DNA of 64,000 nucleotides from Candidatus Chloroploca asiatica (GTDB taxonomy: Bacteria > Chloroflexota > Chloroflexia > Chloroflexales > Chloroflexaceae), in NCBI RefSeq assembly GCF_002532075.1, contig NZ_LYXE01000090.1, positions 186,001 to 250,000 of the forward strand. The letters are read 5' to 3'. Each line of letters begins with the position of its first letter. Position 1 is the stretch's first letter. Below the pieces are notes generated by a model. It searched no databases. It had not been told where the DNA came from and was given only the letters and a program-made list of their open reading frames with translations. The position numbers and the translations under genes are program-made. Shown in pieces: positions 13,801 through 30,528 of the stretch.

Positions 13801-14050
13801 GCGGATGGGGCCGCTCGGTCTCCTTGCCTTCGGGTGGCTGCTCTTTAATTTCGCACGCGGGGCCTGGCAAACGCTTGCTCGCACTGGTGCGGCGCGGCAC
13901 GCTGGCGCATACGGCCCCGTGCTAGTCGCTGGAGTCAGTGCCGCGATGGCGGGCGGACTTCTCCATGGCATGGTTGACCAGTTCTACTTCTGGCCAGATC
14001 TGGCGTTTGCCTTCTGGCTTATGGTATGGGTGGAGTATGTTCATCGTTGA
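10820..14050 (+). CDS. Fusion of clan-A glycoside hydrolase and O-antigen ligase-like polymerase
   Basis: The 1076-residue protein opens with a membrane anchor or signal (residues 5-30). It continues with an extracytoplasmic TIM-barrel glycoside hydrolase (about 45-420) carrying the acid/base motif QIWNEPN (Glu208) and nucleophile motif WITEFGWN (Glu344), as in GH5/GH39-like clan A enzymes. A small beta domain (about 430-520) follows. The rest is a polytopic membrane domain with around ten helices and the O-antigen-ligase/Wzy signature region (GHPNNLGLAMG, FSRGAYLG, and AHPHNLLLDLALRMG near residue 985). Known Wzy_C proteins polymerise or ligate undecaprenyl-linked glycans at the periplasmic face. 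Coupling a hydrolase to it suggests trimming or transglycosylation of the same glycan (inference). The downstream genes add glycosyltransferases. Confidence 0.85.
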   Translation: MKIHHSFRLVILLLLNGLLLVSFAGFVWADNALHRGVVFTPDPEPIPQADGPTLGINLFNVHLEPDPVAVQRSFELTAKLGARFVRMQVPWDDLEIHGRGDFEDRRNVEAVGVVSSWAKYDRIANAARDAGIELIWRLERPPVWARSQFEADPVFQAGLLVDGNSTGPPDDLADYAAFVRAVVERYNGDGVDDAPGSPVVRYFQIWNEPNLRNEWNWHDPRPEDFVELLRVGATAVREANPDAVVIFPGLAPTDGLDFRAPMTELEYLDRVYRAGGAAYFDVMAAQGYGLGQPPDEHRYVFLRGRGNWNWQRPIDTRNDVSRVVLLREVMELHSDHATPIWITEFGWNSAPDHIPPERRMTWGPPVSETTKGEYLVGQMKRARDEWPWIGVMNVWMLRYGGYAVPDPADPTPYFALVSRDWQIQPSFDILQAFATAPTIAGVGAHSWNHAAVVPLADGWRLQFAGTRIALVVDQADPVAVTINGNPVALRRDESDGRALLVSDELPDSVHVLELQGSPAPVSFIVERSRPWAFWWDYGALGLLALMAVSGAATMLAAPPVLVLMSQHVRRLREQMLARGGWLAYLVRTDTLVASGMLFAVIIAYRASPQVPLTLAGLLLFAILAVIRPRVALLFVPLTLPLYFIPKLIFDSRLGLRESGLALPLHELLLVIALFAAGVRLVIEVMAHWLKRPLREPQVLTLPDNAMHALRDLRQTWSFWLPILLVGLAAVWGVVIAEQRGPALRELRWMFVGPMVFVGVAALFGQAYQRPVVLAWLTGGALAGLVGLLQFGGLNLVPLFGTKAGFGDDSFFVEGVRRVASLYGHPNNLGLAMGRYWPVAAALTFVALRGGGVRKAWPYALLTLLTLGGLLVSFSRGAYLGMLVASGVLALALVPTKLWRTRRVLVPLAMIAGIGVVGVILAIILDIERLNPFGASSGVRVQTWLSALAMWRDHPLGIGLDQFGRLYPAYINPTLAETNEINTAHPHNLLLDLALRMGPLGLLAFGWLLFNFARGAWQTLARTGAARHAGAYGPVLVAGVSAAMAGGLLHGMVDQFYFWPDLAFAFWLMVWVEYVHR

Positions 14051-14118
14051 CAAAAGCGCTCAAGTGTACTACCATGGCACGACCAATAAGATCCCACCCA
14101 TTTTGTGAGGAGCACACG

Positions 14119-14535
14119 ATGACCCTGCATGCCCACGGCACGTTCACGGTTCAACTCACCCCTCAGCCCCTTGCCGACCCCACTGCCGACAGCCTACTCG
14201 GCCGTCTCGCTATCGCCAAGGAGTTTCAGGGCGACATCACTGGCATGAGCTATGGTGAGATGCTCAGCGCCCGCAGCGCGGTCGATGGCTCAGCCGGCTA
14301 TGTCGCCATCGAAAGATTCACCGGCACGCTCCACGGTCGCCGTGGCAGTTTCGTCCTCCAGCACAGTGGCACGATGACCCGCGGGGCCCAGCAACTCACC
14401 ATCAGCGTCGTACCAGACTCAGGCACCGACGAGCTAGAGGGCCTCACCGGGACGATGAATTTGCAGATCGCCGATGGTGTCCACGCCTACGACTTCATCT
14501 TTACCCAAGCAACCTCCCATGACACACCGGCTTGA
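14119..14535 (+). CDS. DUF3224 domain protein
   Basis: This is a 138-residue all-beta protein. It has the pattern HAHGTFTVQLTPQ, LLGRLAIAKEFQGDITG, ERFTGTLHGRRGSFVLQHSG and ISVVPDSGTDELEGLTG, which defines DUF3224 (allene-oxide-cyclase-like barrel fold). The molecular role is unknown. The start at 14119 has a GAGGAG site; the longer open frame from 14026 overlaps the preceding gene and has no such site. The stop overlaps the start of the first glycosyltransferase by 17 bp, so the two are probably translated together. Confidence 0.85.
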   Translation: MTLHAHGTFTVQLTPQPLADPTADSLLGRLAIAKEFQGDITGMSYGEMLSARSAVDGSAGYVAIERFTGTLHGRRGSFVLQHSGTMTRGAQQLTISVVPDSGTDELEGLTGTMNLQIADGVHAYDFIFTQATSHDTPA

Positions 14536-15700
14536 TCGTCTTGCCCAGGTACTCGGTCTGTTCTATCTACTTGACCGGCTCTGGAAGATCCTGGCTGTCG
14601 TCGCTTTTTTTCGGCGACCTCCGCCACCAGTGCCTACGCAATGGCCATCACTGACCTTGCTCTGCCCGATAACCCACTCGCCCAATGATCTGCGATCAGT
14701 GCTGATCGCCAGGGCACACCTCGCCTATTCTGGACAGCACGAGTGTCTTTTGATCTGTGACCCTGCTGATCAAGCAACGCAGGCGATCTGTATGGAGGTA
14801 ATGGAGCGTTATCCAACATGGCCGGCCCGCATCGTACTGGTTGCGCCTGACCATGGAACGCTAGCCTCGAAGATTGCCAAACTGCGTACTGCGTTGCCCG
14901 AGGCACACGGCGAGATACTCTGTTTTGTTGATGACGATATTCTCTTGCGCCCCGATGCCTTGCGCATCCTGGTGCCGTATGTGATGCAGTCCACGACGGG
15001 GGCAGCCTTTGGGTTGGCCTGTTATACACGCTGGCAAACGCTGGCCGAAAGCCTGATGAGCGGCTTTGTCAATACTAATGCGCTGCTTAGTTATGTGCCG
15101 GTGACCTATCTGGTCGAGCCATTCACAATCACCGGCCACTGTTTTGCCTTGCGCCGTGAGGTTTTTACCGCAATAGGCGGACTAGAGGGCATGGAAGAAC
15201 GGATCGACGATGACCACGAGCTTGCGCGGCGGGTGCGCAGATCGGGCCTACGTAACGTGCAGACCCCGCTGGTCTATGATGTCGACAACCGGCTTGCCCG
15301 ATTGCGCGACTATCACATGCAAATGCGGCGCTGGTTGGTGATCCCGCGCCAGGCAATGTTGCCGCACCTGAACCTTCGTGAGCGCAGCGCGATGCTGTTT
15401 GGGAGCCTCGGCAGCCTGTTGCCACCCCTGCTGCTGTTGCTCGCCCTGGTGACGCGCCGACGTGTGCCGTGGCTGAGCCTCGGGTCGAGTCTGGGTTATG
15501 TTGCGGCAACCCAGGCGCTGCTCGAACATGCGTATCTAGGCCGGGCGATGCCGCTTCGTCAGGCCCTGTTGCTCCCGATCCTCAACTGGCTCATGCCGCT
15601 CTATATCGGTCTGATCAGTCTCGGCAACAACACCATTGTCTGGCGTGGGCAACGCCTACGGGTTGAACGCGGAGGGACATATGCCATCATCGAAGAGTGA
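14519..15700 (+). CDS. Glycosyltransferase, ceramide glucosyltransferase (GT21)/HpnI-like
   Basis: This is a 393-residue membrane-associated GT-A enzyme with an N-terminal hydrophobic segment (FYLLDRLWKILAVVAFF). It carries the D,D,D,(Q/R)xxRW pattern of the GT21 family: CDPAD early, FVDDDILLRPDAL, ERIDDDHELARRV, and QMRRW. C-terminal hydrophobic helices follow (SLLPPLLLLLALV and others). Family members transfer a sugar from a nucleotide sugar to a lipid such as ceramide or a hopanoid polyol; here the acceptor is not known. The ATG at 14519 lies within the end of the DUF3224 gene. The next gene is a paralogue, separated by 27 bp. Confidence 0.88.
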   Translation: MTHRLDRLAQVLGLFYLLDRLWKILAVVAFFRRPPPPVPTQWPSLTLLCPITHSPNDLRSVLIARAHLAYSGQHECLLICDPADQATQAICMEVMERYPTWPARIVLVAPDHGTLASKIAKLRTALPEAHGEILCFVDDDILLRPDALRILVPYVMQSTTGAAFGLACYTRWQTLAESLMSGFVNTNALLSYVPVTYLVEPFTITGHCFALRREVFTAIGGLEGMEERIDDDHELARRVRRSGLRNVQTPLVYDVDNRLARLRDYHMQMRRWLVIPRQAMLPHLNLRERSAMLFGSLGSLLPPLLLLLALVTRRRVPWLSLGSSLGYVAATQALLEHAYLGRAMPLRQALLLPILNWLMPLYIGLISLGNNTIVWRGQRLRVERGGTYAIIEE

Positions 15701-15727
15701 CGTTATGGATCAAGCAAAGGACGTCGT

Positions 15728-16909
15728 ATGCGCTGGCTCTGGCGTTTGTTGATCATCCTGCTCTATGGCGAGCGACTGCTGAAACACCTGGCCGTGGTGC
15801 GGTTTTTTCGTCGTGCTCAGCCACCAGCCGAGGTTGACCCAGGGCTGGTCAGCATCATGCAGCCGATCCTCAGCGGTGATCCGGCGCTGGCGGCATGTCT
15901 CGAGGCCAATCTCAAAGCACGTTCAGGATATCAACGTCAATTTATCTGGCTCATTGACGATGATGATGAGCCAGCGCGGCAGATCTGCACTGACCTGATG
16001 GGCCGCTATCCCTCGGTGGCAATTACGCTGGTGGCCTTGCCTGCCCCGCCGCCTGAACACAACCCGAAGCTTGTCAAGCTGATCGCTGGAAGTGCCCGCG
16101 CACGTGGCACAGTCATCTGTGTGCTCGACGACGATACCATGTTGCCCGACCATGCCCTGGAGAACTGCCTGCCTTATCTGGCGCAGCATGGGGCCGGGCT
16201 TGTCTTTGGCCTGCCCTACTATGTCAGTTACGACAATCTCTGGTCGGGTTTGGTGGCAACGTTTGTCAACAGCAGCAGCTTGATGACCTACATTCCGTTC
16301 AGCCTACTGCACGAGCCAGTGACGATCAATGGCATGTTTTATGCCATCCGCCGCACCACGCTTGAGGCTGTCGGTGGGTTCGCTGGTCTGGAACAACTTG
16401 TCGCCGACGACTTTGCCGTCGCCGAACGATTACGGCACCACGGCTATCGTCTGGTTCAGACCCCGGTGCGTCACGCGATCCGCACCACCGTATCAGGGCC
16501 ACGTCACTATCTGCGCCTGATGCAGCGCTGGCTCATCTTCCCCCGCGAGTCGCTGATGCGTCATCTGCCACCGCACGAACTGGTACTGATCTATAGCCTG
16601 GTGGGGCTACCGACGTTTTTGCCGTGGATGGCACTCGCCGTGTCAGTGGGAAGACCGGGGCAGAGAAGCCTGTGGCTCTTTCTCGCCTATGCTGGCCTGA
16701 GCTACCTGATCTTTGCCTATCACAACAGGAGCTACCTCAACAGCGCAACACCCTGGCGCTGGAGTTGGATGGTGCCCCTGGTGCAAATCCTGCTGCCTGC
16801 GCAATTCGTGAGCGCGTTGCTGGCCCCCCGGAGGATCAACTGGCGCGGGCATACGATGCAGATCGAGCGTGGCGGCAACCTCCGCCTCGTGCACCGGCGT
16901 GACCAATGA
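15728..16909 (+). CDS. Glycosyltransferase, GT21-like paralogue
   Basis: The 393-residue protein has the same length and layout as the enzyme directly upstream: an N-terminal helix (LWRLLIILLYGERLLKHLAV), LIDDDDEPARQI, CVLDDDTMLPDHAL, QLVADDFAVAERLR, and C-terminal helices. The final motif reads LMQRW, so the Q/R expected four residues before Trp is Leu; this differs from QMRRW in the upstream copy and may mark changed specificity. Transfer of a sugar onto a membrane lipid is likely, from the family. Its stop overlaps the ATG of the hydrolase gene by four bases (ATGA). Confidence 0.85.
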   Translation: MRWLWRLLIILLYGERLLKHLAVVRFFRRAQPPAEVDPGLVSIMQPILSGDPALAACLEANLKARSGYQRQFIWLIDDDDEPARQICTDLMGRYPSVAITLVALPAPPPEHNPKLVKLIAGSARARGTVICVLDDDTMLPDHALENCLPYLAQHGAGLVFGLPYYVSYDNLWSGLVATFVNSSSLMTYIPFSLLHEPVTINGMFYAIRRTTLEAVGGFAGLEQLVADDFAVAERLRHHGYRLVQTPVRHAIRTTVSGPRHYLRLMQRWLIFPRESLMRHLPPHELVLIYSLVGLPTFLPWMALAVSVGRPGQRSLWLFLAYAGLSYLIFAYHNRSYLNSATPWRWSWMVPLVQILLPAQFVSALLAPRRINWRGHTMQIERGGNLRLVHRRDQ

Positions 16910-17751
16910 AGCTTGCCGAAATGTATGAGGCCGTGTTAGCCGCGTATCCACCCGAGCAACGCATGGTGGCGGGAGAGCGGTGGACAGTCATACAGGCAGG
17001 CACCGGCCCAACGGTCGTGCTCTTACCAGGCGGTTTTGGCCTGGCGACAACTTCATTTCAATACATTGCCGCACTTGCATCTGACTATCATGTGCTCGCG
17101 TTGAGCTACCCGCCCCGGCTTGATCAGGTTGCGCAGCTTGCCTCCGGGGTGATTGCGCTCCTCGACGCTTGTGGTGTTGACACGGCGAGTATCGTCGGCG
17201 GCTCGGCCAGTGGCGGCGTTGCCCAGGTACTCGTGCGCCGCTACCCGCAGCGCATCGCGAAGCTCATCCTTGCGCAGACAGGCGTGCCACAGCCAAGGCG
17301 GGCGTGGTTCGATCAGTTGATTGCCAGGGCATGTGAACAGTTACCAGCCGCGTTCATGCTTGGCTGCTTACGGCTGACCGTCTATGCCTTTTTACCGGGC
17401 CAGACAGAAGCGATAATCTTCTGGCGTCGGCACTTTGCCAACGTCATTGGCGAGCAAACACGCGCCAGCCTGGCTGCACGTTTCCACACCCTGGCTGACT
17501 ACGACCACAACTATCGCTTCAGTCCCGAGGATCTTCAGGCCTGGCCTGGCACCATTGCGATCATTGAATCACCCCAGGATCGTATGCTACCTGCGCATGA
17601 ACAAGCCGCGCTACGCAGCCTCTACCCTCAGGCCACCGTCTACCGTTTGGCAGGAACCGCCCACCGCGACAGCGTAACCAACCCGATGCCACAGATCAGC
17701 GTCTTGCGGGCAATCCTTGAAGGAGCAAGCCTGCCTACACATTGCCTGTAG
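16906..17751 (+). CDS. Alpha/beta hydrolase
   Basis: This 281-residue alpha/beta-fold hydrolase has an oxyanion-region LLPGGFG, nucleophile elbow GGSASGG (Ser), an acid in ESPQDRML and a C-terminal His in GTAHRDSV, giving a complete catalytic triad. No signal peptide is visible. It is the last gene of the glycosyltransferase operon and is translationally coupled to it. It may remove an acyl group from the glycolipid or its precursor, but this is inference; esterase, lipase and lactonase activities cannot be told apart from sequence. Confidence 0.85.
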   Translation: MKLAEMYEAVLAAYPPEQRMVAGERWTVIQAGTGPTVVLLPGGFGLATTSFQYIAALASDYHVLALSYPPRLDQVAQLASGVIALLDACGVDTASIVGGSASGGVAQVLVRRYPQRIAKLILAQTGVPQPRRAWFDQLIARACEQLPAAFMLGCLRLTVYAFLPGQTEAIIFWRRHFANVIGEQTRASLAARFHTLADYDHNYRFSPEDLQAWPGTIAIIESPQDRMLPAHEQAALRSLYPQATVYRLAGTAHRDSVTNPMPQISVLRAILEGASLPTHCL

Positions 17752-17762
17752 CAGACCTAGAC

Positions 17763-17891
17763 CCAATACCTTGCACATAAGGTTGACCCGTGTTGACGCA
17801 AAGACACAAAGCTGCGCATGCAGATCCATTAAACCTTTGCGCCTCTGCGCCTTTGCGTCACATAACCCGACTTGTTTGCAAGGTCTTGAAC
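17763..17891. repeat. Dispersed foldback repeat, copy 2
   Basis: Reading on the minus strand this repeats the element at 1679-1786: ctttgcgtcaacacgggtcaa and gcaaggtattgg match almost base for base. Arms gttgacgcaaagacacaaag and cctttgcgcctctgcgcctt fold back on each other, and outer ends ccaataccttgca and tgcaaggtcttg form a second, imperfect inverted pair. It fills the gap between the hydrolase and the stop of the cyclase gene. Confidence 0.8.
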
Positions 17892-20800
17892 CTAGACCAG
17901 GCGCGCTTCGGCAACGGCCTCGTCGGTTGTGAGCGTCTGGCCGTGGGCATAAGCAGCAGCCTGTTGCTCTTGGCTAAGCGCCATGCGAGCCGGTGCCAGA
18001 GCCTCATCGAGTTGGGCCTGTTCGGGCGACGAAAGAGGCGAGCCGGTCGCCTCACGCAGGCTCGCAGCAGCAGCAGCGAGGCAGAGAGCACGTTCAGGTT
18101 GCCCGGTGAGACCGGCAAGCACACCGACATCTTCAAGCAGATAGGGCAACGCCCAGCGGTCGCCAAGATCCGCATTGATGGTCAGAGCTTCACGATAGAG
18201 CAGCCTGGCGGTTGCGTAGTCGCCTTCAGCGGTGGCTACCTTGCCAAGGTTGTTCAGCGAAATTGCGATCGCATGGCGGTCACCAGTTGCCCGTTCAAGG
18301 GCCAACGACTCTTCAATATAGCCCCGCGCCACCTTATAGTCACCGATCTCGATGGCAAGCATGCCCAGGTTGCCCAGCGAATTGGCGATCCAGAGCGGGT
18401 TACCGGCCTCGCGACGCACGGCGAGGCTAGCTTCAAAAGAGTGGCGGGCCCGATCCACGTCACCCTGGTGGAAGGCCACAATGCCAAGATTGCTCAACGC
18501 TTTGCCCTGCATAATCAGATCACCACATTCACGCTGGATCGCCAGACTTGCCTCATAGTGCGCCTGGGCAAGAGCATACTCACCTGTATGCATGGCCGTT
18601 GTCCCGGCATAGTTCAGCGTCTCGGCCAGACCAGCCTGATCGTTGAGCAGCGTAAAGGCCGTCATCGCTTCGTCAAGCCAGGGCTGAGCCTCGGCGAAGC
18701 GGCCCTGTTTGCGCAACAGTTCGCCAATTAGCGCACGAGCCAGCGCTGCGTCCCGCGGCTGATCCTGGGCAAGCGCCAGATTCAACGCCAGTTCATAGCG
18801 CAGATACGCCTCGTCCCACCGCCCAACCAGATCGAGCACATTACCAAGACGAAGCAGTGGCTCAATCTGGGCTTCGGGGGGAACAAGCGCGAGCAACCGC
18901 GTAAGATAATCAATGGTCGCTGCATTCGCATAGATTAACTGCGCAGCAACCCCCGCTCGCCATAAATATTCCCGCCGTTTGCCAACATTTTCGCTGCGAT
19001 CATAGTGAAAAGCGAGCAGATCAACCAGTTGCTCCTCCCCGGCATTGCGCTGCTCAAGATAGTGACCAATTTGCTCGTGAAGCATCGCCCGTGTTGCAAA
19101 AGACAAGCTCTCGTAGGTCACTTCCTGGGTCACAATATGCTTGAAGAGATAGGTCAATTCAGGATCAGGGCTATCGAGCGGAGTTAATTCGAGGGTGCTC
19201 AGATTTTCCAGTTCACGCCGCACCCGCTCTTGCTGACCCAAAAAAGAACCCATTCCCCAGAGAATCGTCGCAGGGAAGAGACGACCAATGACACTCGCTA
19301 CTTTCAACAGGTTCCGCTGGCTTTCCGTGAGCCGATCCACCCGACTGAGAATCAGGCTATGCAGGCTTGGAGGGAGTTCAAGGCTGCTCAAGACACCTGG
19401 ATCACGAGGATCGATGCCCTGGTCACGCATAAAGTTGAGCAATTCTTCCACATAAAAAGGGTTGCCCTGGGTCCGCGCATTCACTTGTTCGATTAGATGT
19501 TCTGGGATGGCTTCCAGAGTGCCAAAAAATTGCTGGAGCTTCAGTTGCACCAGGGTCGCGACTTCGTCAGGCAAGAGGTTATCGAGTGGCACTGCGCGGA
19601 AAGAGGGCATCTGCGTGATAACTCTCTTGATGCGTTGCTCGCTTTGGAGCGGACGATAGGCCATCAGGATGAGAACGGGCATCGTCGAGAGTGTACGGCC
19701 CAGCACTTCCAGCAGATCATGCGAGAGCGCATCCATCCAGTGGCAATCTTCAAGCACAATCATCAGGGGATGAATACTGGCACGCGCACGCAGGCAGGTC
19801 ACCAGCAAAGCTTCGAGCGATTCTTTCCGCAGCTTTGCACCGAAATCGATTGTTAATTCATTGTCGGGAATAGATATATTAAGAATCGCGCCAAGCAATG
19901 GCAAGCGCGGTACGAGCGTCGCGTCAAGTTGCTCGAGTTCGGTTGCAAGACTGTTGATCTGTGCTGCCACCGTAGCCCGTGGATCAAGGCCAAAGAAGGC
20001 ACGCCAGACGTTCTGCCAGACCAGATAGGGCGTATTGGTGCCATAGGATTGGCAGGCACCACCATAGACCACCAGATTCTGGCGCGAAGCCGCCCGCACG
20101 ACCTCGGCCACCAGGCGCGATTTGCCCATGCCCGCCTCGGCAACAATGCCAACCACCTGACCATCGCCCCGTTGGGCCATTTCAAGACGGCCCAGCACAA
20201 ACGCTAACTCGGTCTCGCGCCCAACCATTGGTAGCACATAACGTGGTTCGTGCAGGCGGATCGTATCGCGATCAGCGCTGATCAGGCGATAGGTCGCAAC
20301 TGGCTCAGACTTGCCCTTGACCATGATGGGAGCGAGTGGTTCCCAGGTAAAGCGATCACCAGTGGCCCGCCACAGCGTATGGCTCACCAGAACCTGCCCC
20401 ACCGTTGCATGTTGCATCAAGCGAGCCGCCATATTTACTTCGTCACCAAGCACACCATAGGTACGCCGAGTGATCCCTCCATATGCGCCCGTACGGGCAC
20501 GGCCCTGGCTCAAGCCAATCTGAAACTGGTCAAGATAGTCAACCTGCCATTCACGCAGCTCAAGTGCAGCCATCACGGCGCGCACAGGATCATCTTCGTG
20601 GGCCACCGGGGACCCAAAGGCTGCGTAGAAGAAACTACCTTTATCGCCAATGGTCAATTGCAACACATAGGCATCGTAAGTGCGCAGCATCCGTTGCGCC
20701 TGTAGCATAAAGTCGTTCAGTTTGGTCTGGGCATCAGGATCGTGGTCATAGTCGATCCCGCCAAAACGCACAAAGAGAGCCACCACTGGGCGCAACTCGG

Positions 20801-21602
20801 TGAGAAACTCTCCCATCCCGACCTGCAAGCGTTCGAAGATTGGTGGCAACATCCACTGACGATAGGCTGTTGCGTCAAGGGCCGTCTCGGGCAAGGTTGG
20901 CCATGGCGCAGGTGCCGCAACGGTACGCAACCCATGCAACACGGCAAAACGTGCGCTACCGGCAGGATCAACGTGCCACTCTCCAACGTTTGCCAGTTCG
21001 CCCAGCGCAAGCGCGGTTGCTTCGTCAAACACTACCTGGCCCTGCTGGGCCAGATGCTCGGCTTCCGCCATACGCTGGAGCGTATCGCCAGCCAGGACAT
21101 CGAGGATCTGAATAGATGGGTCGCCAACGAGAAAGCGGCGCACGGCACCACTGGCAACACCAACTTTGATCGCCAGACGAAACCTGCCAGCGCCTGCAAC
21201 CTCAAGCTCCTCAAAGGCTGCCATTGCCTGTTGCAAGGCAAGTGCACACGTTGCCGCGCGATGTGCCGCCCCCCTCGGATCTGCATCCGAGGTCCCACCT
21301 TCAGATGCGGCCGGAGCGATGGCGTCGAACCAGCAGGTAATGGCATCCCCGGCAAAACCAAGTACCGAGCCGCCATACCGGTCGACTTCGGCAACCAGGG
21401 CATCATAGACACGGTTGAGTTGACGCGGTAGTTCTTCGGCTCCACGTTGGGGCCCAAGCGCCCGCACGAGCGATTCGGTCAGGGGGGTGAAGCCAGAGAT
21501 ATCGGCGAACAGGGCCGTACCGCTGGTCTGTTCAGGAAGCGTGTGACCATGAGCCAGTGCCTGACGCCGATCCATCGGGATATAGGCGAGGGGCGATTCC
21601 AT
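17892..21602 (-). CDS. Class III nucleotide cyclase with AAA/STAND ATPase and TPR repeats
   Basis: This is a 1236-residue cytoplasmic signalling protein. The first cyclase domain (about 25-230) keeps both metal Asp residues (FADISGFT, Asp34; FAGDAITCWF, Asp86). A second cyclase-like domain (about 265-440) has VRFGGID in place of the first metal site, so it is probably a partner or regulatory half. An ATPase follows from about 465, with Walker A EAGMGKS near residue 490 and VLEDCHWMD. The C-terminal 400 residues are TPR units (LGNLGMLAIEIGDYKVARGY and similar). The order matches cyclase/STAND regulators that make cAMP or cGMP in response to a ligand or protein. The start has an AGGAG site that includes the stop codon of the peptidase gene 12 bp upstream. 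Confidence 0.9.
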   Translation of the reverse strand: MESPLAYIPMDRRQALAHGHTLPEQTSGTALFADISGFTPLTESLVRALGPQRGAEELPRQLNRVYDALVAEVDRYGGSVLGFAGDAITCWFDAIAPAASEGGTSDADPRGAAHRAATCALALQQAMAAFEELEVAGAGRFRLAIKVGVASGAVRRFLVGDPSIQILDVLAGDTLQRMAEAEHLAQQGQVVFDEATALALGELANVGEWHVDPAGSARFAVLHGLRTVAAPAPWPTLPETALDATAYRQWMLPPIFERLQVGMGEFLTELRPVVALFVRFGGIDYDHDPDAQTKLNDFMLQAQRMLRTYDAYVLQLTIGDKGSFFYAAFGSPVAHEDDPVRAVMAALELREWQVDYLDQFQIGLSQGRARTGAYGGITRRTYGVLGDEVNMAARLMQHATVGQVLVSHTLWRATGDRFTWEPLAPIMVKGKSEPVATYRLISADRDTIRLHEPRYVLPMVGRETELAFVLGRLEMAQRGDGQVVGIVAEAGMGKSRLVAEVVRAASRQNLVVYGGACQSYGTNTPYLVWQNVWRAFFGLDPRATVAAQINSLATELEQLDATLVPRLPLLGAILNISIPDNELTIDFGAKLRKESLEALLVTCLRARASIHPLMIVLEDCHWMDALSHDLLEVLGRTLSTMPVLILMAYRPLQSEQRIKRVITQMPSFRAVPLDNLLPDEVATLVQLKLQQFFGTLEAIPEHLIEQVNARTQGNPFYVEELLNFMRDQGIDPRDPGVLSSLELPPSLHSLILSRVDRLTESQRNLLKVASVIGRLFPATILWGMGSFLGQQERVRRELENLSTLELTPLDSPDPELTYLFKHIVTQEVTYESLSFATRAMLHEQIGHYLEQRNAGEEQLVDLLAFHYDRSENVGKRREYLWRAGVAAQLIYANAATIDYLTRLLALVPPEAQIEPLLRLGNVLDLVGRWDEAYLRYELALNLALAQDQPRDAALARALIGELLRKQGRFAEAQPWLDEAMTAFTLLNDQAGLAETLNYAGTTAMHTGEYALAQAHYEASLAIQRECGDLIMQGKALSNLGIVAFHQGDVDRARHSFEASLAVRREAGNPLWIANSLGNLGMLAIEIGDYKVARGYIEESLALERATGDRHAIAISLNNLGKVATAEGDYATARLLYREALTINADLGDRWALPYLLEDVGVLAGLTGQPERALCLAAAAASLREATGSPLSSPEQAQLDEALAPARMALSQEQQAAAYAHGQTLTTDEAVAEARLV

Positions 21603-21614
21603 CGGTTGTGACTC

Positions 21615-24600
21615 CTACGGCAACATCTGCGATCCCGTTGCTGCCAAGCACGGCACGGGATCAGCAAGAAGCTTGACGAAACGTGTCTGGCCTTTCTCTA
21701 CCGGCGCAAGGCTGACTGGGGTCACCAGGATGCACCGATCCGCTTTGTTGCGAGCCTGCTTGTAGATGGTGGCATACGGGATACCGTCTTCGACATAGAA
21801 ACCGCACAATTCGCCATTGTCACGCGCTCCGTTCGTACGCCCTACCAGCGCCCACCCATCTTTCACGGCACCATCGTAGTCGCCAAGCCCGGCTGCTTCA
21901 ATGTTGCGCTCGATCCAGACGCGTGCCCCCTGCTGCCGCGCACGGTAGAGGATCTGGTTGACAACCCAGGTCTGTTGCGCCGGAGTCTCATCAACCAGGC
22001 CATCAGACGTGATCGCACGTACTTCAAAGAGGTAACTACCGTTGGCAAGTCCCTGGTAACGTATCGGGCTGACACATGGCGCAAAGCTCGCCGGTTCATC
22101 TTGCTTGCTCAAGCGGCACTCGAAGCGCAACGCGTCTGCTCCACTTCCGCTAAAGCTTATGGTTGCAACCGAATCGCTGATCGTCTCGCTCGGGCCGCTG
22201 AGGATCATGGTGTCGAGTGCTATGCCGCCCTCGATCGTCAGGCTGCCCGTTGCAGTCGCAGGCAGATAACGAGCCTCATTTTCGGTGAGCAGACCGGTGG
22301 GGCCGGGTACAAGCAGATAGGTGACGGCAAACGGGTAGGTGCCTGGGGCAAGCGGTGGCACGGCAAAGCTCGCAACCCCGGTGGGGCCAGTCAACCCCGT
22401 GATCACCTGGTCACCAACATTCAGGTAGAGCCGCGCTCCTCTGATCCCTCCGTTGGTATCAGTGAGCGTTGCCGTGATCCGTGACGGATCGCCAGGCTCG
22501 ACCCTGGCGGTTAACACCGGTTGTTGTTTCGCTACATCAAGGCTGGCCTCAATCCGAGTTGGCTGCAGCGCAAGGCTACCCCCAAAGGTCGCGCCGACAA
22601 CCTGTTGGCCCGTGCTAAACATCACGAGGGTGAAGGTGGCTTCGCCGACGCTATTTGTGGGCACCGTAACCGTCTGTGCCCCAATGCTCAAGCTGATGGG
22701 CTGATCCGCCAGGTTGACGGCACCGTTGGCACTCAACCGAGCTATAAAGGTTGCGGGCTGACCGAAAGTTGCGCCCACAGGGACTTCCAGGTTGAGACTC
22801 GTTGCGACTGCATTCGCGGGCGTTGTTGGTACGGGCGGCGGCGGTGGCTCAATAACGGCTCCATTCACAAAACCACCAGCCTGAAAATAGAGGCCCAGAT
22901 TGGTGTTCATCGCCGTCAAACCCGCCGCATTCACGGCCTGCACAAAGAAGGCGAAACCCTCTGTGCCTTCGGGAAGCAGATAACTGCCCTCCCAGTCCGA
23001 CGGATCAGCCTCGCCGGGGCCAAGTTGCATTGATTGCCACTGACCGGCGAGCGGGCCACGTGCGGCTGTAAAGGTGACCCAAACTTCGCGCATCGGGACA
23101 CCGCCGCCATTGGCTGAAATCTCGAAATCCACGCGGTCGTCATCACGGCTAAAGATCACAACGGGGATCGCCGGTGCTCCGGCCAAGGCCGGATTGAACC
23201 CGTTGGCATCAACCGCTGTCTGATCACTATAAAAGAGGCGGAAGTCCGATGCACCATCGTAGTAGCGCAGCGTGCCCTCGATCTGATCGGGATTCGCCAG
23301 GAATTGCGCCGGAGTTAGTTGCAGACGAGTGCGCTCGCCGCCTGTGATCCCGATCAGTTCACCAATCCGATTGATCGTCCACCACTGTTCAGGATAGAAC
23401 GCCTCGGTGGGGAAGGTGATATGCACGCCACGCAATTCGGTTGCCGGAGCGCCAGTCAATGGCAGCACATTGTACGCCTCGCTGTAGCGGCTGCGCAACA
23501 AGATCGCGCCACGCAATTGCTGCCCCTCTTGCCCAACACGATACTGGACAACCGGCAAGACGGGTTCGCCAGGGCGGGCGATGACATCATCGGGTGTTGC
23601 CCCACGCACATAGGTCGCCTGCACCGTGGCTCCACTCCCAAGGGTTGTCACGTCCAGCGTCTCGACCGTCAAGTCTGGCCTGACGGTCACCTCGGCAACC
23701 TGCACACGGTAGAGTTCGTCTGGGGTGCCAATGGATGTAAAGCTGTCGGGCAACGGTGGCAACGCCTCTGGCCCGAGCCGTGCACCTGGCATATTGATGC
23801 GCGTCATCGGCAGGCCAAAGATCGCACTGATCGTCAGGGTCTTTTTGTCAATCCCTCGAATAACAGCCGAGTCGAGCAAGTAACGCTGCTTGGCCAGCAC
23901 CAGGGCCTCGCCAACCGCTACTTCATCGCCCAGCGGTGACGTTGGGTCACGATCAATGCGAAGTTGGTCAAAGAAGTTTGAGTAGAGCTTTTCGGCAAAC
24001 TCGATAAACTGGGTATCACCATACTGGTACCCCGTCCCCGCCACCAGGGTTGTTCCCCGGCGAGCAAAGAACTGCGCCCAATCGGGTTGGTCAGTTGCCC
24101 CCGGAATCGCCGCACCGTCGGGTGTGTTGTAGCCCGAATGACATCCCGGGCTGACCACCAGTGCGCCAGCCAGTCGCGATGCGCCAAGATTGGCAAGATC
24201 GGCAGTCCGGAGCACGGTAGCATAATCAGCGGCTTTGAGTGCACCATCGCTGAAATGACCCGCCAGGTAGAGCAGGTCGTAGTCTCCGTTGCTCAACGCA
24301 CTACGCAGATCATCGGCGGTCCACGTTCCCGGCAACTGGTAGCTGTCAGTACTCGGCGAAAGCAGGGTTGCCGCAGCCTGATCCGTGCCCAGGCTCAGGC
24401 TCTCGGCAATCGCACTCGCCGACTCAAAGTGGAAATCGTATCCGCTCACAAACGAACTTGTCGGCACCACAACGCCATCAGTTGCAAGGTACCGATTCAG
24501 CATCGTCATTGCCTCGTTTGCCGTTTCGACCAGTCGGCCAACCGGCAGATCCGGGATCGCCAGGCGCGTCGTGCGGAAACTGACGGTAAAGCGTGCGCCA

Positions 24601-27600
24601 TACTCATCTTGGCCGAGAATATAACCGAGCCGTAACGCTGCTTCGGAGCTACTGTTATTGTCGACGGGTGGCTTGAATTCGCTCTCATTGCCAAGCAACG
24701 CTTGATCAGGGTAACGGAAGAAGGGGATGACGTCATCGCCACCAATCAGCACGATATACCGCAGATTCGGATTCAAGGCACGATAGCGGTCGATGAGTGC
24801 CTTGATCTCGCCCGCGACGATATTCTTCGCCTCGGGGCAACTGATATTCGCGTCGGCGTTCGCATGTGCTGCCGCAATACGCGCATCCAATCCTACATCA
24901 ATCAGGACACCGCCAATCTCAGGGCGTGCCATAAATGTGCCAAGCAGCGTTTGCAACTGGGTCAACTCGCTGGCACTGCTGGGTAGTCGACTCAGATCGG
25001 TGAGCACCAGGGTCTGATACGCTCCTGCCTGAGCAGCTAACCCATTGATGTCGACAGCAGGCGGCACCACATTCACACAGTTGCTCTCGCTCGTGGCCGC
25101 CGTGAGGGTAAAAGGTTGCACAGGATCATAGGCACCATTGCGTCCATAGACGGCAATGTAGATGCGCCCGCGTTCATTGAAGGTGTTGAGCGCCAGCGTG
25201 CGTGGCAGCGTTCCTTCAATATCAGTATATGCAAGCAAGCCACTGTCAACCACAATGCTTGCCAGGTCTGAGGCTTTGAAGGGTGAGGCTTTGAAGGGCG
25301 ACGCCTTAAACGGCGAGGCTTTGAAGGGTGACGCCTTGAAGGGTGACGCCTTGAAGGGCGAGGCTTTGAAGGGTGACGCCTTAAACGGCGAAACAACCGC
25401 CTCGGCCAACAGATTCGGCTGAAAGGCGTCTGGGGCAAAAGCCAGGCTGGTGAAAGCCTCTGGGCTATAGAGCTCGGGAGCCAGCGTATTGGTAATAAAG
25501 TTGCTCGCCTCAATCGCTGTATAGTCAATCTGGGTCTGGGCAAGCGCAAGCGTTGTGGTCAAATCGTTCGTCGCAGCCGCAAGGATCTCTTCGGCGCGCG
25601 CATTGAGATCATTAAAAAGGGCCACATCATAGCCTGCAGGCAGGTTCGTCAGGTTGACCACCAGACGGCTGAGTGGCTCCACTTCCACATAGTACCAGCG
25701 CACCTGCTCAGCAAGGGCTAGTTGCTGACTTGCACTCGAATTGGCCCTACCGAGCGGCAGCGCTTGGTACCAGACGGTATTGTCAGGCCCAACCGGGGCG
25801 CATGTTGCCAATGCCGAGCTATTGCCCGCACTATCGGTTGCCGTTGCCGTAACAAAGCTCCCTATGCCAGTCGCAAGAGTACGTGTCATTGGCACGGTAC
25901 CATCTTCGTCGGTGACAACCTCGAAGGTGTCGAGCAAGGTACGAGCCTCGGCATTGCCCCCGGCAGCACAAAATTCACCCCCAAAGAGCTGTACGGTGTA
26001 CGTCATATTGCCCGTACCGGTCAACAGCCACCCTTGTACATTTGCCTGTCCTGCTACCGGAAAGTCAGGGATCGCCGTGGTAATCGTTGGGGCACGTTGA
26101 TCGTTATTCGCCCCATTGCGCAAAACAACGCTGCTGCCGTTGTTGTAGATGCGATTGCCAAAGATACGATTCGCATTCGTGGTGGCTCCTTCAATCAGGA
26201 TCGCCTGCTCTCCATGCCCGGCAATCACATTGCCGGCCCCGTTGGCCAGACCGCCAATCGTATTATTATTGGCCCCACCATTGAGCCAGATGCCGAGGTT
26301 GCCCGAGCCAAAGGTATTCACAACCGCATTGCCCGTGACATTGACGCCGATATGGTTGCCCTCGATCCGGTTGCCGGATCCACTGGGTGCTGCCACATCA
26401 ATGCCGTACGCAGTGTACCCCCCGATCACGTTGCATGCCCCGCTACAAACCCCGCCCGGCGTGACCCCGGTTGTGCCACCAATCAGGTTATTGCTGCCCG
26501 TCACGAGCATCGCCACCCCATTAATGCCAAGCGATGCCGTCCCTGTCGCATTCGTCCCCAGATAATTGCCCTGTATGACATTATTGCTGGATGCGGCGAC
26601 CCGGATCTGCTCGAAGTCATTGCCGGCGATCAGGTTGCGTTGACTCGCCAGGACACCGCCGATGAGATTGTTGTCTGAACCATTGAGGAAGATCCCGATC
26701 TGGCCGTTGCCCTGATCAAGCGAACCGCTCGCATCAGTGCCTATCATGTTGCACTGAAAGCTATTGTTGCTTCCATCAACAAAAATACCATGGGCCTGAA
26801 AGCGGTTGATCACAAGTCCACGCACAGTGCTGCCACTTGCGTTTTCAGCCAGGATAAGGCCGAAGGAAGCCCCCGGAGCGCCGCTCAATTCGATCGTCAG
26901 CGTTGGCGGCCAGGTTGCACAACTTGCCCCCGGTTGCGTCAGGCCATCAAGCATGACCGGTGCGGTGATTGGTGGAAGATCAGTGTCCAGGGCAATCGTC
27001 TGCACGCCTGTCCCCGGAAGGGCAAAGCTGATCGTATCTAATTCTGGTGTCTCGTTCGCATCGAGAATTGCCTGCCGCAGCGAGCCAGGGCCACTGTCGT
27101 TGATATTCGTTACAACAAGCAGGTCATCAAACTCGATTGCACCAAGATCACAGGCACCATCAGACGCACGGACAACACCACGCTGATCGGTCGGCGCACA
27201 GGTCGCCAGATCGCCAGCGTTGCGCGCCGGGCTCGTACGATCGAGGCTGTAAAAAAGTCCGGATGGGTCAAGGGCCAGGCCAGGATTCGCCTCGCTAAAC
27301 CCAGGGCAACTGCCGCCAGGTCCTTCAAGATTCGTCCCACTCTCAGGACTCAAGGCTTCGATTGAGCAGTTTGGCCGAAAGAAGCTGGTATGACCAGTGA
27401 TGATCGAATTATTGATCGTAAAGACCGCCAGGGCCGAGCTTCCATAGATGCCACCGCCCTCGCTGATTTCTCCTGACACAATATTGTCAGCGATCGTGAC
27501 ATTGTTGAGCGTGATCGTACCACTCGTGGCAAAGATGCCACCCCCATAGCTCTCGTAGCCAATGGCTTCGTTCCTGCTAATGGTTGAATTCTCGATCACC

Positions 27601-28244
27601 AACGCCCCCGCAGCGTGTGCAATCGCACCGCCATGCGCTGTGGAAACATTATTGATCAGGGCACTCTGGCGAAGGCTTGCCGTGCCATAGTTGCTGAGGG
27701 CACCCCCGTTCCGTTCGCCTTCGCCTTCCCAACTATACCCGGCCTCGTTATCACGTAACACCACGTTCGCCAAGGTGAGGGTGCCAAAGTTCAAGATCGC
27801 CCCACCCTCACCAAGGCCGGAATGTCCGTTCGTTAGAGTCAGATCACGCAAGGTAAGATCTGCGCCAAGTGCAACTTCAAAGAAGCGGAAATCGGCCTCG
27901 CTATTGAGTCTCCGCTCGAAGGTTGCCCCATTGCCTTCAATGATCAATGGCCCACCAGCAGCAGTGACCACCGGCAAGCCATTCAAACCATCTTCTGTGC
28001 TGATATATTCCACATCAAACTGATAGATGCAAGCATCTGTCAATTGAAGCGTATCCGGCTCTGGCGAATTCGTTGCTGTTGCCACAGCCTCAAGCAAAGC
28101 ATTCGTATCACATGCGACCACAAACGTCTCGGCATAGGCTGACTGTTGCAGATTGCCAAAACTTGCCGCAAGCACGACCACGATGACACTACAAAGCAAA
28201 GCGAACCGCAACACCATAGCCTGTTGCTGTGCAATGAAGGCCAT
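21615..28244 (-). CDS. Giant secreted beta-helix / C25-type (gingipain-like) cysteine peptidase
   Basis: The 2209-residue protein has a signal peptide (residues 1-38). Two right-handed beta-helix regions follow (about 40-380, ending CDLGAIEFDD as in choice-of-anchor Q proteins, and 385-760 with GNVIAGH/NTIGG turns), then a prepeptidase-like region (about 830-1060) interrupted by eight SPFKA units (952-992). The C25-like peptidase domain (about 1070-1500) has His1330 in LYLAGHFSDG and Cys1368 in VVSPGCHSGYN. Ig-like domains occupy 1640-2100 and a short C-terminal domain ends the protein. Gingipain-type enzymes are extracellular and cut after Arg or Lys; the SPFKA lysines could be processing sites (inference). 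The start has a GAGAAGG site. The gene is co-directional with, and 12 bp from, the cyclase gene. Confidence 0.88.
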   Translation of the reverse strand: MAFIAQQQAMVLRFALLCSVIVVVLAASFGNLQQSAYAETFVVACDTNALLEAVATATNSPEPDTLQLTDACIYQFDVEYISTEDGLNGLPVVTAAGGPLIIEGNGATFERRLNSEADFRFFEVALGADLTLRDLTLTNGHSGLGEGGAILNFGTLTLANVVLRDNEAGYSWEGEGERNGGALSNYGTASLRQSALINNVSTAHGGAIAHAAGALVIENSTISRNEAIGYESYGGGIFATSGTITLNNVTIADNIVSGEISEGGGIYGSSALAVFTINNSIITGHTSFFRPNCSIEALSPESGTNLEGPGGSCPGFSEANPGLALDPSGLFYSLDRTSPARNAGDLATCAPTDQRGVVRASDGACDLGAIEFDDLLVVTNINDSGPGSLRQAILDANETPELDTISFALPGTGVQTIALDTDLPPITAPVMLDGLTQPGASCATWPPTLTIELSGAPGASFGLILAENASGSTVRGLVINRFQAHGIFVDGSNNSFQCNMIGTDASGSLDQGNGQIGIFLNGSDNNLIGGVLASQRNLIAGNDFEQIRVAASSNNVIQGNYLGTNATGTASLGINGVAMLVTGSNNLIGGTTGVTPGGVCSGACNVIGGYTAYGIDVAAPSGSGNRIEGNHIGVNVTGNAVVNTFGSGNLGIWLNGGANNNTIGGLANGAGNVIAGHGEQAILIEGATTNANRIFGNRIYNNGSSVVLRNGANNDQRAPTITTAIPDFPVAGQANVQGWLLTGTGNMTYTVQLFGGEFCAAGGNAEARTLLDTFEVVTDEDGTVPMTRTLATGIGSFVTATATDSAGNSSALATCAPVGPDNTVWYQALPLGRANSSASQQLALAEQVRWYYVEVEPLSRLVVNLTNLPAGYDVALFNDLNARAEEILAAATNDLTTTLALAQTQIDYTAIEASNFITNTLAPELYSPEAFTSLAFAPDAFQPNLLAEAVVSPFKASPFKASPFKASPFKASPFKASPFKASPFKASPFKASDLASIVVDSGLLAYTDIEGTLPRTLALNTFNERGRIYIAVYGRNGAYDPVQPFTLTAATSESNCVNVVPPAVDINGLAAQAGAYQTLVLTDLSRLPSSASELTQLQTLLGTFMARPEIGGVLIDVGLDARIAAAHANADANISCPEAKNIVAGEIKALIDRYRALNPNLRYIVLIGGDDVIPFFRYPDQALLGNESEFKPPVDNNSSSEAALRLGYILGQDEYGARFTVSFRTTRLAIPDLPVGRLVETANEAMTMLNRYLATDGVVVPTSSFVSGYDFHFESASAIAESLSLGTDQAAATLLSPSTDSYQLPGTWTADDLRSALSNGDYDLLYLAGHFSDGALKAADYATVLRTADLANLGASRLAGALVVSPGCHSGYNTPDGAAIPGATDQPDWAQFFARRGTTLVAGTGYQYGDTQFIEFAEKLYSNFFDQLRIDRDPTSPLGDEVAVGEALVLAKQRYLLDSAVIRGIDKKTLTISAIFGLPMTRINMPGARLGPEALPPLPDSFTSIGTPDELYRVQVAEVTVRPDLTVETLDVTTLGSGATVQATYVRGATPDDVIARPGEPVLPVVQYRVGQEGQQLRGAILLRSRYSEAYNVLPLTGAPATELRGVHITFPTEAFYPEQWWTINRIGELIGITGGERTRLQLTPAQFLANPDQIEGTLRYYDGASDFRLFYSDQTAVDANGFNPALAGAPAIPVVIFSRDDDRVDFEISANGGGVPMREVWVTFTAARGPLAGQWQSMQLGPGEADPSDWEGSYLLPEGTEGFAFFVQAVNAAGLTAMNTNLGLYFQAGGFVNGAVIEPPPPPVPTTPANAVATSLNLEVPVGATFGQPATFIARLSANGAVNLADQPISLSIGAQTVTVPTNSVGEATFTLVMFSTGQQVVGATFGGSLALQPTRIEASLDVAKQQPVLTARVEPGDPSRITATLTDTNGGIRGARLYLNVGDQVITGLTGPTGVASFAVPPLAPGTYPFAVTYLLVPGPTGLLTENEARYLPATATGSLTIEGGIALDTMILSGPSETISDSVATISFSGSGADALRFECRLSKQDEPASFAPCVSPIRYQGLANGSYLFEVRAITSDGLVDETPAQQTWVVNQILYRARQQGARVWIERNIEAAGLGDYDGAVKDGWALVGRTNGARDNGELCGFYVEDGIPYATIYKQARNKADRCILVTPVSLAPVEKGQTRFVKLLADPVPCLAATGSQMLP
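25270..25389. repeat. Eight tandem 15-bp units encoding SPFKA
   Basis: Eight in-frame 15-bp units use two codon versions (gaggctttgaagggt and gacgccttaaacggc type on the plus strand). Synonymous sites differ between units while the pentapeptide is unchanged, so selection on the peptide is likely rather than a recent slippage event. Confidence 0.9.
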
Positions 28245-28300
28245 TTTACCTTCTCCCAGAGATATGCCCTTTGATCACCCGCCTAGTGGATCGTCTTCTT

Positions 28301-28306
28301 ATTATA
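28301..28306 (-). promoter_or_regulatory. Candidate -10 box for the peptidase-cyclase operon
   Basis: TATAAT on the minus strand lies 57 bp before the ATG of the peptidase gene, in an AT-rich stretch (28295-28370) that stands out from the GC-rich surroundings. No clear -35 at standard spacing. Confidence 0.35.
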
Positions 28307-28451
28307 TTGATATGGCCCAAGCACAACCTGACAAAAGAATTATTTGTGCAAAAAATAACAAGATTGTCATCCAAAGAAGCCCGCGTGGGGAGGTTCGGAG
28401 GAGCGGGTTTCACTGGCATACTCCTCTGCGCTCCCCTACACCGGCTTGCTC

Positions 28452-29252
28452 CTAGCTCTCAGGCGTTGATTTATCCCCGGCCTTATTCTCGGCTACGTTG
28501 GCACGCATCGCTCTGGCCTGTTGCTGCAGGCGCCGGAAATAGTCATTCTCGGTAATCTCGGCGACCTGGTTTTGCTGGCGTGTACGATCAATTTCGATCC
28601 GCAATTCCTGAACCTCACGACGCAGGTTCTGCTCACGGGCAATGACTTCGTCGGCCATCTTCTGAAACGTACGTGCCAATTGCCCCAGAGCATCCTCGCG
28701 ACGCACAACGTCGGCCAGACTCGCGGGGGTATAACGGCCATCATTGATCGCCTGCGCGGCTTCGGTAATAATGCGTACCTGACTGATATACGCATAGTCT
28801 TCGATCACATCGCGCACCCGACTGCGCAAATGCCGGGTCAACACATGGATAATCCCACGCGCCACGCCGCTATGATTCTCGATTAAATCATAGAGCACCT
28901 CTTGCCGCAGACAGAGCAACTCGGTGGCTTGCGTCGCCGTCACCGAAGCACTGCGCGGCTCGGCATCAAGCACCGCCATTTCGCCGACAACCTCACCCGG
29001 CCCCAGTTCATTGAAGGTCAGAGCATCATCATGAATCCGCACCCCTCCCGAAATAATGACATAGAGGCTATCACCGACATCACCCTTCTGGAAGAGCAAT
29101 TGACCTTCGCCAAGGCGCACCGACTCTAGCGCCGCTGCTATTGTTGGAAGCGCATCCGCATAGGCACCATCAAAAAAACGCACTGCCTCTAACAACCTGA
29201 TCCGTTGGCTAAGAGCGTCCAAGGTTGATTTATCTCCGGGTGTGTTGTTCAT
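28452..29252 (-). CDS. Cyclic nucleotide-binding protein with C-terminal coiled coil
   Basis: This is a 266-residue protein. Residues 20-140 form a cNMP-binding (CRP-like) barrel with LFQKGDVGDSLYVI, GPGEVVGEMAVLD and the phosphate-cassette segment AEPRSASVTA. There is no helix-turn-helix DNA-binding domain; instead a HAMP-like helix region and a long charged coiled coil (about 190-260) follow. It probably senses cAMP or cGMP and passes the signal to a partner protein. It is encoded 207 bp upstream of the secreted peptidase, in the same direction as the cyclase operon, which makes it a natural reader of the cyclase product (inference). Its start at 29252 has a conserved barrel beginning soon after. 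Confidence 0.85.
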   Translation of the reverse strand: MNNTPGDKSTLDALSQRIRLLEAVRFFDGAYADALPTIAAALESVRLGEGQLLFQKGDVGDSLYVIISGGVRIHDDALTFNELGPGEVVGEMAVLDAEPRSASVTATQATELLCLRQEVLYDLIENHSGVARGIIHVLTRHLRSRVRDVIEDYAYISQVRIITEAAQAINDGRYTPASLADVVRREDALGQLARTFQKMADEVIAREQNLRREVQELRIEIDRTRQQNQVAEITENDYFRRLQQQARAMRANVAENKAGDKSTPES

Positions 29253-30194: not shown

Positions 30195-30198
30195 GGCC

Positions 30199-30528
30199 TA
30201 CGACCAAGCCCCCACGCTTCTGGTGGGTTTGGCCAGGACAAATACATGCAACCGAAGGTGACCGCAATCGTCTATGCCCAAGCCCCCACGCTTCTGGTGG
30301 GTTTGGCCAGGACAAATACATGCAACCGAAGGTGACCGCAATCGTCTACGACCAAGCCCCCACGCTTCTGGTGGGTTTGGCCAGGACAAATACATGCAAC
30401 CGAAGGTGACCGCAATCGTCTATGCCCAAGCCCCCACGCTTCTGGTGGGTTTGGCCAGGACAAATACATGCAACCGAAGGTGACCGCAATCGTCTACGAC
30501 CAAGCCCCCACGCTTCTGGTGGGTTTGG
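30199..30528. repeat. Five-copy 74-bp tandem array
   Basis: Units begin with aagcccccacgcttctggtg at 30206, 30280, 30354, 30428 and 30502, exactly 74 bp apart. They are identical except for an alternating tacgacc/tatgccc just before each unit, so the true period is a 148-bp pair. The fifth copy breaks off into a perfect hairpin. The period is not a multiple of three and open frames cross it on both strands, so I read it as non-coding. It is not a CRISPR array because the intervals are identical. Confidence 0.92.

Follow-up and report, generated by a model that had tools for sequence, protein, structure and literature searches.

Peptide signalling systems of the RRNPPA type have been described in Bacillota (PMC9765709), and the Phr propeptides that serve some of them are known to carry up to 8 identical copies of their pheromone (PMC11343458). 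Here we analyse a stretch of 64,000 nucleotides from Candidatus Chloroploca asiatica (contig NZ_LYXE01000090.1, positions 186,001 to 250,000; hereafter the window, whose numbering is used throughout), in which a gene for a secreted peptidase adjoins one for a cyclase-STAND-TPR protein and one short peptide is repeated in the peptidase as a tandem array. Nothing in the genome annotation, a C25-like peptidase and an adenylate cyclase, makes these genes stand out. The component families are known, while their combination and the array are new, and no published description of the peptidase-cyclase pair was found in the literature. The pairing extends over three phyla and the array is identical in protein yet nearly randomised in its codons, which points to a selected function that has seemingly never been named.

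The window holds the three open reading frames (ORFs) that an earlier note had joined into a single signalling unit, all on the minus strand, as are the gene and protein features given below. The peptidase gene (2209 amino acids, aa; 21615-28244; ORF and structure model) is followed after 12 bp by the cyclase gene (1236 aa; 17892-21602; tandem class III cyclase, STAND/AAA_16 and TPR by ORF and domain scan), whose ATG lies 12 bp past the peptidase stop codon, itself overlapped by a GTAGGAG ribosome site. The third gene, for a cyclic nucleotide (cNMP)-binding protein of 266 aa (28452-29252), precedes the peptidase gene by 207 bp. In a first neighbourhood survey of 40 loci of relatives the cyclase adjoins the peptidase in most, and 43 of 400 Chloroflexota genomes have the peptidase by profile search. 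When named genomes were scanned separately with only the peptidase as query, 80 loci emerged, distributed over Chloroflexota, Verrucomicrobiota (e.g. DG1235) and Actinomycetota (e.g. Motilibacter, Kineosporia and Nocardioides agariphilus). Where enough surrounding sequence was available for a locus to be evaluated, a tandem-cyclase/STAND/TPR gene adjoins the peptidase at 92 of 109 loci, and at 51 of 60 in the peptidase-only scan. Gene orders vary (cyclase before peptidase 45, peptidase before cyclase 29, convergent 14, divergent 6), so that selection has kept the genes together, rather than one ancestral operon having been frozen. Moreover, the 5.84-Mb genome holds only two full-length cyclase-STAND-TPR genes, that of the window (C89) and one other (C91), and both adjoin one of its three such peptidases, an association above chance. 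We consider it highly probable that peptidase and cyclase form a functional pair. The reverse pairing is looser, the cyclase type, present in 156 of the 400 genomes at E 1e-100, being found without the peptidase more often than with it.

Within the genus the two genes are gained or lost together. A block at 17698..28409, comprising both module genes and nothing else, is missing by genome comparison from sister genome G001, which retains the cNMP-binding gene (96%) and both flanks (93-95% DNA identity), and G002 (Candidatus Chloroploca sp. Khr17) has all three genes in the same order; neither sister thus keeps the peptidase without the cyclase. Between the stop codon of the cNMP-binding gene and the peptidase gene lies a hairpin followed by a U-rich tract (28340..28451; -42 kcal/mol, z -2.75), which is terminator-like although a simple terminator scan did not call it. 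A three-gene operon with a co-transcribed cNMP-binding gene would agree with the shared strand, the 207-bp gap, the arrangement in G002 and the recurrence of related genes near the pair elsewhere; given the strong hairpin and the persistence of the cNMP-binding gene without the pair in G001, we reject it as the unit and judge such an operon very improbable. The unit is therefore composed of two genes, with the cNMP-binding gene as a neighbour outside the block. Of the three-member unit proposed earlier, what stands is the peptidase-cyclase pair, conserved in varying gene order in Chloroflexota and beyond, whereas the three-gene block already fails in G001.

The proposed link to cyclic nucleotides survives in a weaker form, without co-inheritance of this particular cNMP-binding gene. 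At 15 of 87 paired loci, proteins with a cyclic nucleotide-binding (CNB) domain are encoded no more than 1.5 kb away from the pair (16 such genes in 235 kb, or 6.8 per 100 kb), as against a density of 2.6 per 100 kb farther out in these loci and about 0.2-0.3 per 100 kb over whole genomes; a naive near-versus-far test gives p 0.008 and, several loci being related, lends support rather than proof. Their fusion partners are unrelated: HAMP and coiled coil in the window, MFS transporters (L187, L188, L169, L189, L128), a SpoIIE phosphatase encoded between the two genes (L195), patatin (L139) and glutaminase-STAS (L147, L155). As different CNB proteins have repeatedly been recruited beside the pair, its output is likely a cyclic nucleotide. 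Codirectional with the module and about 4-5 kb downstream, a gene for a 263-aa CNB protein is retained in Herpetosiphon-type loci (L042, L044, L093-L096). The window's own cNMP-binding protein was correctly described as free of a DNA-binding domain, the domain scan giving no HTH; the HAMP-like segment and coiled coil that accompany its CNB domain had been overlooked.

The peptidase begins with a signal peptide-like N-terminus, in keeping with the secretion proposed earlier (aa 1-38, ending in ...QSAYA before E; 28131..28244; by sequence and a hydrophobic maximum at aa 9-29). A predicted beta-helical N-terminal region is followed by a choice-of-anchor Q domain (aa 333-372; 27129..27248; NF041518, E 5.7e-11), and the model places a PPC/collagen-binding-type beta-sandwich at aa ~819-1051 (25092..25790), which compares with the collagen-binding domains of ColG and ColH at Z 12.5 over 108 residues (root-mean-square deviation, rmsd, 2.2-2.3). 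The catalytic domain (aa 1112-1493; 23766..24911) is modelled as a gingipain-type fold with a His-Cys dyad: its nearest structure is gingipain RgpB (Z 32.1, 315 residues aligned, rmsd 2.7 Å), with Kgp second at 28.4 and the next unrelated family, separase, at only 17.8. By alignment the dyad comprises H1330 (24255-24257) and C1368 (24141-24143), invariant in all 74 aligned peptidase domains. For the peptidase region the AlphaFold model reaches a predicted local distance difference test score (pLDDT) of 74.7, with most of the catalytic domain at 75-97. Sequence searches were far less informative: in the Pfam scan the window peptidase falls below the cut-off of PF01364 (C25), its best match being CHAT at E 0.011, and across Pfam, NCBIfam and PDB sequence searches the only named families for the 2209-aa protein are choice-of-anchor Q and weak Ig-like matches. 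As 12 of 35 peptidase relatives do match PF01364 (best 2.4e-14), the C25-like label given earlier proves apt by fold and by kinship, if unobtainable from Pfam on this protein.

The most telling feature of the peptidase, overlooked in the earlier note, is a tandem array of eight SPFKA units (aa 952-991; 25272-25391) seen in the sequence and modelled with pLDDT < 50. It occupies a disordered loop of the PPC domain directly ahead of the catalytic domain, a position at which most of these peptidases carry an array, and because it is disordered in the model it is probably exposed. Units measure 5-7 aa and copy number ranges from 4 to 25, with GNLNAI in Herpetosiphon-type genomes, FSPDA/FSPEA in 18-20 copies in Anaerolineae, FSPSV in Actinomycetota and FSPES/FSPAQ in Verrucomicrobiota. 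In the window protein SPFKA is preceded (aa 926-948) by degenerate YSPEA/FAPDA-like units which, resembling leftovers of the common F-S-P-x-x array, suggest that the unit has been replaced in this lineage. We also considered SPFKA as a self-cleavage array for a Lys-gingipain and rejected this as a general rule, as most arrays are without Lys or Arg.

What sets the arrays apart is the discordance between protein and codons. Across 51 five-mer arrays, copies equal the array consensus in 88% of cases, and unit positions 4 and 5, with entropies of 2.26 and 2.42 bits between arrays, fall to 0.17 and 0.21 bits within them. Pairs of copies in the same set differ at 5.9% of amino acids and at 52% of 4-fold degenerate sites, and Ser codons swap between AGY and TCN in 30% of cases. 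Codon divergence reaches 54% in five-mers, 48% in six-mers and 33% in seven-mers, against 60% for codon pairs of one amino acid taken from other parts of these genes. In the L123 array, two synonymous codings (Ser AGC/TCG) alternate along consecutive identical FSPDA units, as though repetition were shunned in DNA and retained in protein. With amino acids uniform and synonymous sites nearly randomised, the copies must be old and their sameness kept by selection on the protein, which rules out recent DNA slippage or duplication as well as gene conversion. As gene conversion would equalise the codons and exposed positions would be free to drift in a spacer or solenoid, the simplest reading of the sequences is that every copy must be the same peptide, and we rather favour a recognised peptide over a spacer.

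In the main rival reading the array has a structural or adhesive role, either as a flexible spacer or as a multivalent ligand of an extracellular partner or polymer, while the STAND-cyclase senses another cue (e.g. bicarbonate/ATP or the state of the cell envelope) and governs protease production or release. The location of the array in a PPC/collagen-binding-type domain speaks for such a role, as does the existence of paired peptidases without an array and of array peptidases without a cyclase, and the separate cue would suit a tandem cyclase closest to soluble adenylyl cyclase (sAC). The latter enzyme is regulated by bicarbonate. A spacer, however, has no need to freeze within each array positions that are free between arrays while synonymous sites are nearly randomised, nor does it predict the co-variation of unit and TPR described below, and we hold this alternative to be doubtful.

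The partner protein comprises a C1 cyclase domain (aa ~24-235; 20898..21533) with metal-binding D34 and D86, a C2 domain (aa ~248-440; 20283..20861) with N390, R394 and the adenine-type Lys K321, a STAND/AAA_16 NTPase domain (aa ~457-880; 18963..20234; PF13191, 4e-22) and, in the model, a TPR superhelix (aa 881-1236; 17895..18962) that we propose as a peptide sensor. Neither this protein nor the cNMP-binding one has a transmembrane segment. Among paired cyclases, D34 is present in all 85 rows with a letter and D86 in 87 of 87, as are N390 and R394; K321 aligns as Lys in 58 of 87, and the other rows have a Lys three columns further. The inactive cyclase domain that would have undone the earlier proposal is thus not what the conserved catalytic residues suggest, and from them we expect that the enzyme is very probably active. 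The best PDB sequence match of the tandem cyclase, over both domains, is human sAC (ADCY10; E 9e-27). ATP rather than GTP is the likely but not certain substrate, nucleotide specificity being left in doubt because the residue aligned with sAC T405 is Gly, and the product would then probably be cAMP. A sAC-like cyclase of Chloroflexus was reportedly described by Kobayashi in 2004. Matches to the TOMM kinase/cyclase (TIGR03903; 177 bits against a cut-off of 706, and no kinase domain) and to HaaT were discarded as generic.

The STAND-TPR model (pLDDT 89.8) aligns with the STAND-TPR protein 6mfv over 631 residues at Z 24.3. Among solved structures, LGN/Pins (Z 27-28) come closest to its TPR superhelix, followed by Rap proteins, with or without pheromone, at 25-27, both groups being peptide binders, and by NprR at 22.8; RRNPP proteins are therefore not the top match, yet they follow close behind. 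Conserved N597 and N637 lie in TPR helices, and Pfam and NCBIfam scans give no HTH or Rap family in the cyclase protein. That the TPR domain is the receptor for the array peptide is a tentative proposal.

Unit and TPR co-vary across loci. Unit similarity tracks TPR identity with the rest of the cyclase controlled (partial Mantel r 0.58, p 0.001-0.002, p-values that are too optimistic for related sequences; r 0.59 with a quartic control), and the partial r is likewise 0.58 where array and TPR are non-adjacent. In close pairs, TPR identity lags behind that of the cyclase front by 7.4% where units differ and by 1.2% where they are the same (p 3e-7, the pairs not being independent). Two Herpetosiphon-type loci of the same genus, L042 and L044, differ in a single sharply bounded tract that takes in the TPR half together with the peptidase N-terminus, its PPC domain and the array, between flanks that are 95-98% identical, and their units read GNLNAI and GNLDAI. 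Cassettes of this kind occur in peptide pheromone loci such as comQXP and agr.

These observations can be assembled into a model in which the array provides a multicopy peptide signal that is sensed by the TPR-STAND cyclase. The exported peptidase would be cut, by its own domain or by another protease, to yield many copies of one short peptide, which would be imported through an oligopeptide permease and settle on the concave side of the TPR superhelix; as the next step, a switch or oligomerisation of the STAND ATPase would activate the tandem cyclase, and the cyclic nucleotide, probably cAMP, would act on cNMP-binding effectors, of which the CNB-HAMP protein may be the one here. Such a scheme would work like the multicopy Phr/RRNPP pheromones, except that a cyclase forms its output. 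We regard this as the most likely single mechanism while holding it with less than even confidence. The wider joint reading is one we advance still more guardedly: a new class of peptide signalling outside Bacillota, in at least three phyla, in which a protease bears 4-25 pheromone copies in a loop, the TPR of a STAND cyclase reads the imported peptide into a cyclic nucleotide, and unit and TPR are swapped as specificity cassettes.

Several points weigh against the multicopy signal. Peptide release, uptake, TPR binding and cAMP output are each inferred, and the TPR fold similarity, as modelled, is generic. The F-[SA]-P-x-x motif is common to arrays across several phyla, which also fits the structural constraint that a spacer or adhesive element would impose. 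Several paired peptidases have zero or just two units (L109, L120, L132), about ten array peptidases are without an adjoining cyclase (L124, L125, L133, L136, L151, L153, L166, L168 and others), and the association between array and cyclase pairing is only modest (83/10 versus 4/4, p 0.012). No P1 residue is constant across units, so no single cleavage rule is indicated. In non-adjacent loci, moreover, the unit-TPR correlation is gone once the catalytic domain is controlled (r -0.09), a domain that accounts for the unit no less well than the TPR does, so that what the TPR tracks may be the peptidase as a whole and not the unit; the gene order of L042 and L044 puts the TPR half and the array physically side by side; and between L123 and L126, both with FSPDA arrays, the TPR diverges while the unit is unchanged.

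As unit similarity tracks the catalytic domain beyond the cyclase, and the disordered array stands immediately ahead of that domain, the array might instead be a self-processing or inhibitory pro-segment whose repeated cleavage sites time activation, with unit and catalytic domain co-evolving and the cyclase link being regulatory only. The units, however, offer no constant basic or acidic P1 residue, and a pro-segment leaves unexplained both the TPR co-variation and the sameness at every position in up to 20 or more copies, which makes this alternative unlikely. Least probable of the rivals, in our estimate, is a defence or programmed-death system with a STAND sensor, a caspase-fold effector and a cNMP alarm signal. 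A STAND NTPase, a caspase-fold peptidase and a cyclase are indeed typical of the conflict systems of multicellular bacteria (PMC7159879), and a related peptidase adjoins a protein of another STAND type, as described below; but the peptidase is exported and so could have no intracellular executioner role, the neighbours examined with Pfam include no defence genes (PADLOC was not searched), and the pair is widely conserved rather than patchy.

Variants of the module occur in this genome and elsewhere. A second, distant module in the same genome (C91; L063 8039-15769) consists of a cyclase of 1407 aa followed by a peptidase of 1148 aa with seven copies of GGSIGAI, and two modules with different units in one cell are possibly separate channels; the genome's two ordinary C25 genes are located elsewhere. 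At L097 (2721-19901) two array peptidases, with units FSPDS and FSPDT, flank one cyclase. At L058 (2803-12979, G008) an array-less peptidase relative adjoins an nSTAND1-WD40 protein in place of the cyclase. Peptidase-less cyclase-STAND-TPR genes adjoin other exported or membrane proteins, namely an FG-GAP/P-domain protein (L199 75-10060) and an unnamed family of ~500-525 aa (L210-L214), and the cyclase may have several secreted partners. Around the window's module, a Wzy-like O-antigen ligase and two glycosyltransferases precede it at 10820-16909, the entire stretch being syntenic in the sister genomes, and a 74-bp minisatellite of 4.5 copies at 96-100% lies at 30198-30528, its sole site in this genome, with one partial copy in G002 and none in G001.

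If the array is a ligand, then Chloroflexus, Herpetosiphon, Verrucomicrobiota and Actinomycetota would share a peptide language with a cyclic-nucleotide output. Cell-cell signalling in the filamentous, multicellular Chloroflexota would then be directly testable with cheap synthetic pentapeptides, and the bacterial sAC-like STAND cyclases would gain a ligand.

The module can be set beside several known systems. Its peptidase shares with the C25 family (gingipains RgpB and Kgp; PorU) a two-part caspase-like fold, a His-Cys dyad and export; it differs in lying beyond the reach of the Pfam model, in having an array-bearing PPC domain ahead of the catalytic one and in its cyclase partner. The cyclase resembles sAC (ADCY10) in its C1-C2 tandem, P-loop NTPase, long helical C-terminus and conserved metal Asp, Asn/Arg and Lys; unlike sAC it is bacterial, ends in a TPR, has Gly at the T405 position and is paired with a secreted peptidase. 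An NTPase joined to a TPR sensor is also found in PH0952/6mfv, MalT and AfsR, whereas the output here is a tandem cyclase and not DNA binding. The STAND/caspase conflict systems of Kaur et al. 2020 (PMC7159879) are built from the same kinds of component, cNMP cyclases and caspase-fold peptidases among them, but those peptidases are described as belonging to cell-internal or membrane-proximal systems, while that of the module is secreted and bears a peptide array. Finally, like RRNPP(A) systems (Rap-Phr, NprR-NprX, PlcR-PapR), the module has adjoining genes for an exported protein with units of 5-7 aa and for a cytoplasmic TPR protein, the latter modelled close to Rap and NprR. In contrast to these systems, the part of the exported protein is played here by a large protease, with up to 20 or more unit copies in one of its internal loops; the TPR protein is a STAND cyclase that lacks an HTH or Rap output and for which peptide binding is inferred, and the hosts lie outside Bacillota. 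If proved, the module would constitute a separate class of peptide-TPR signalling.

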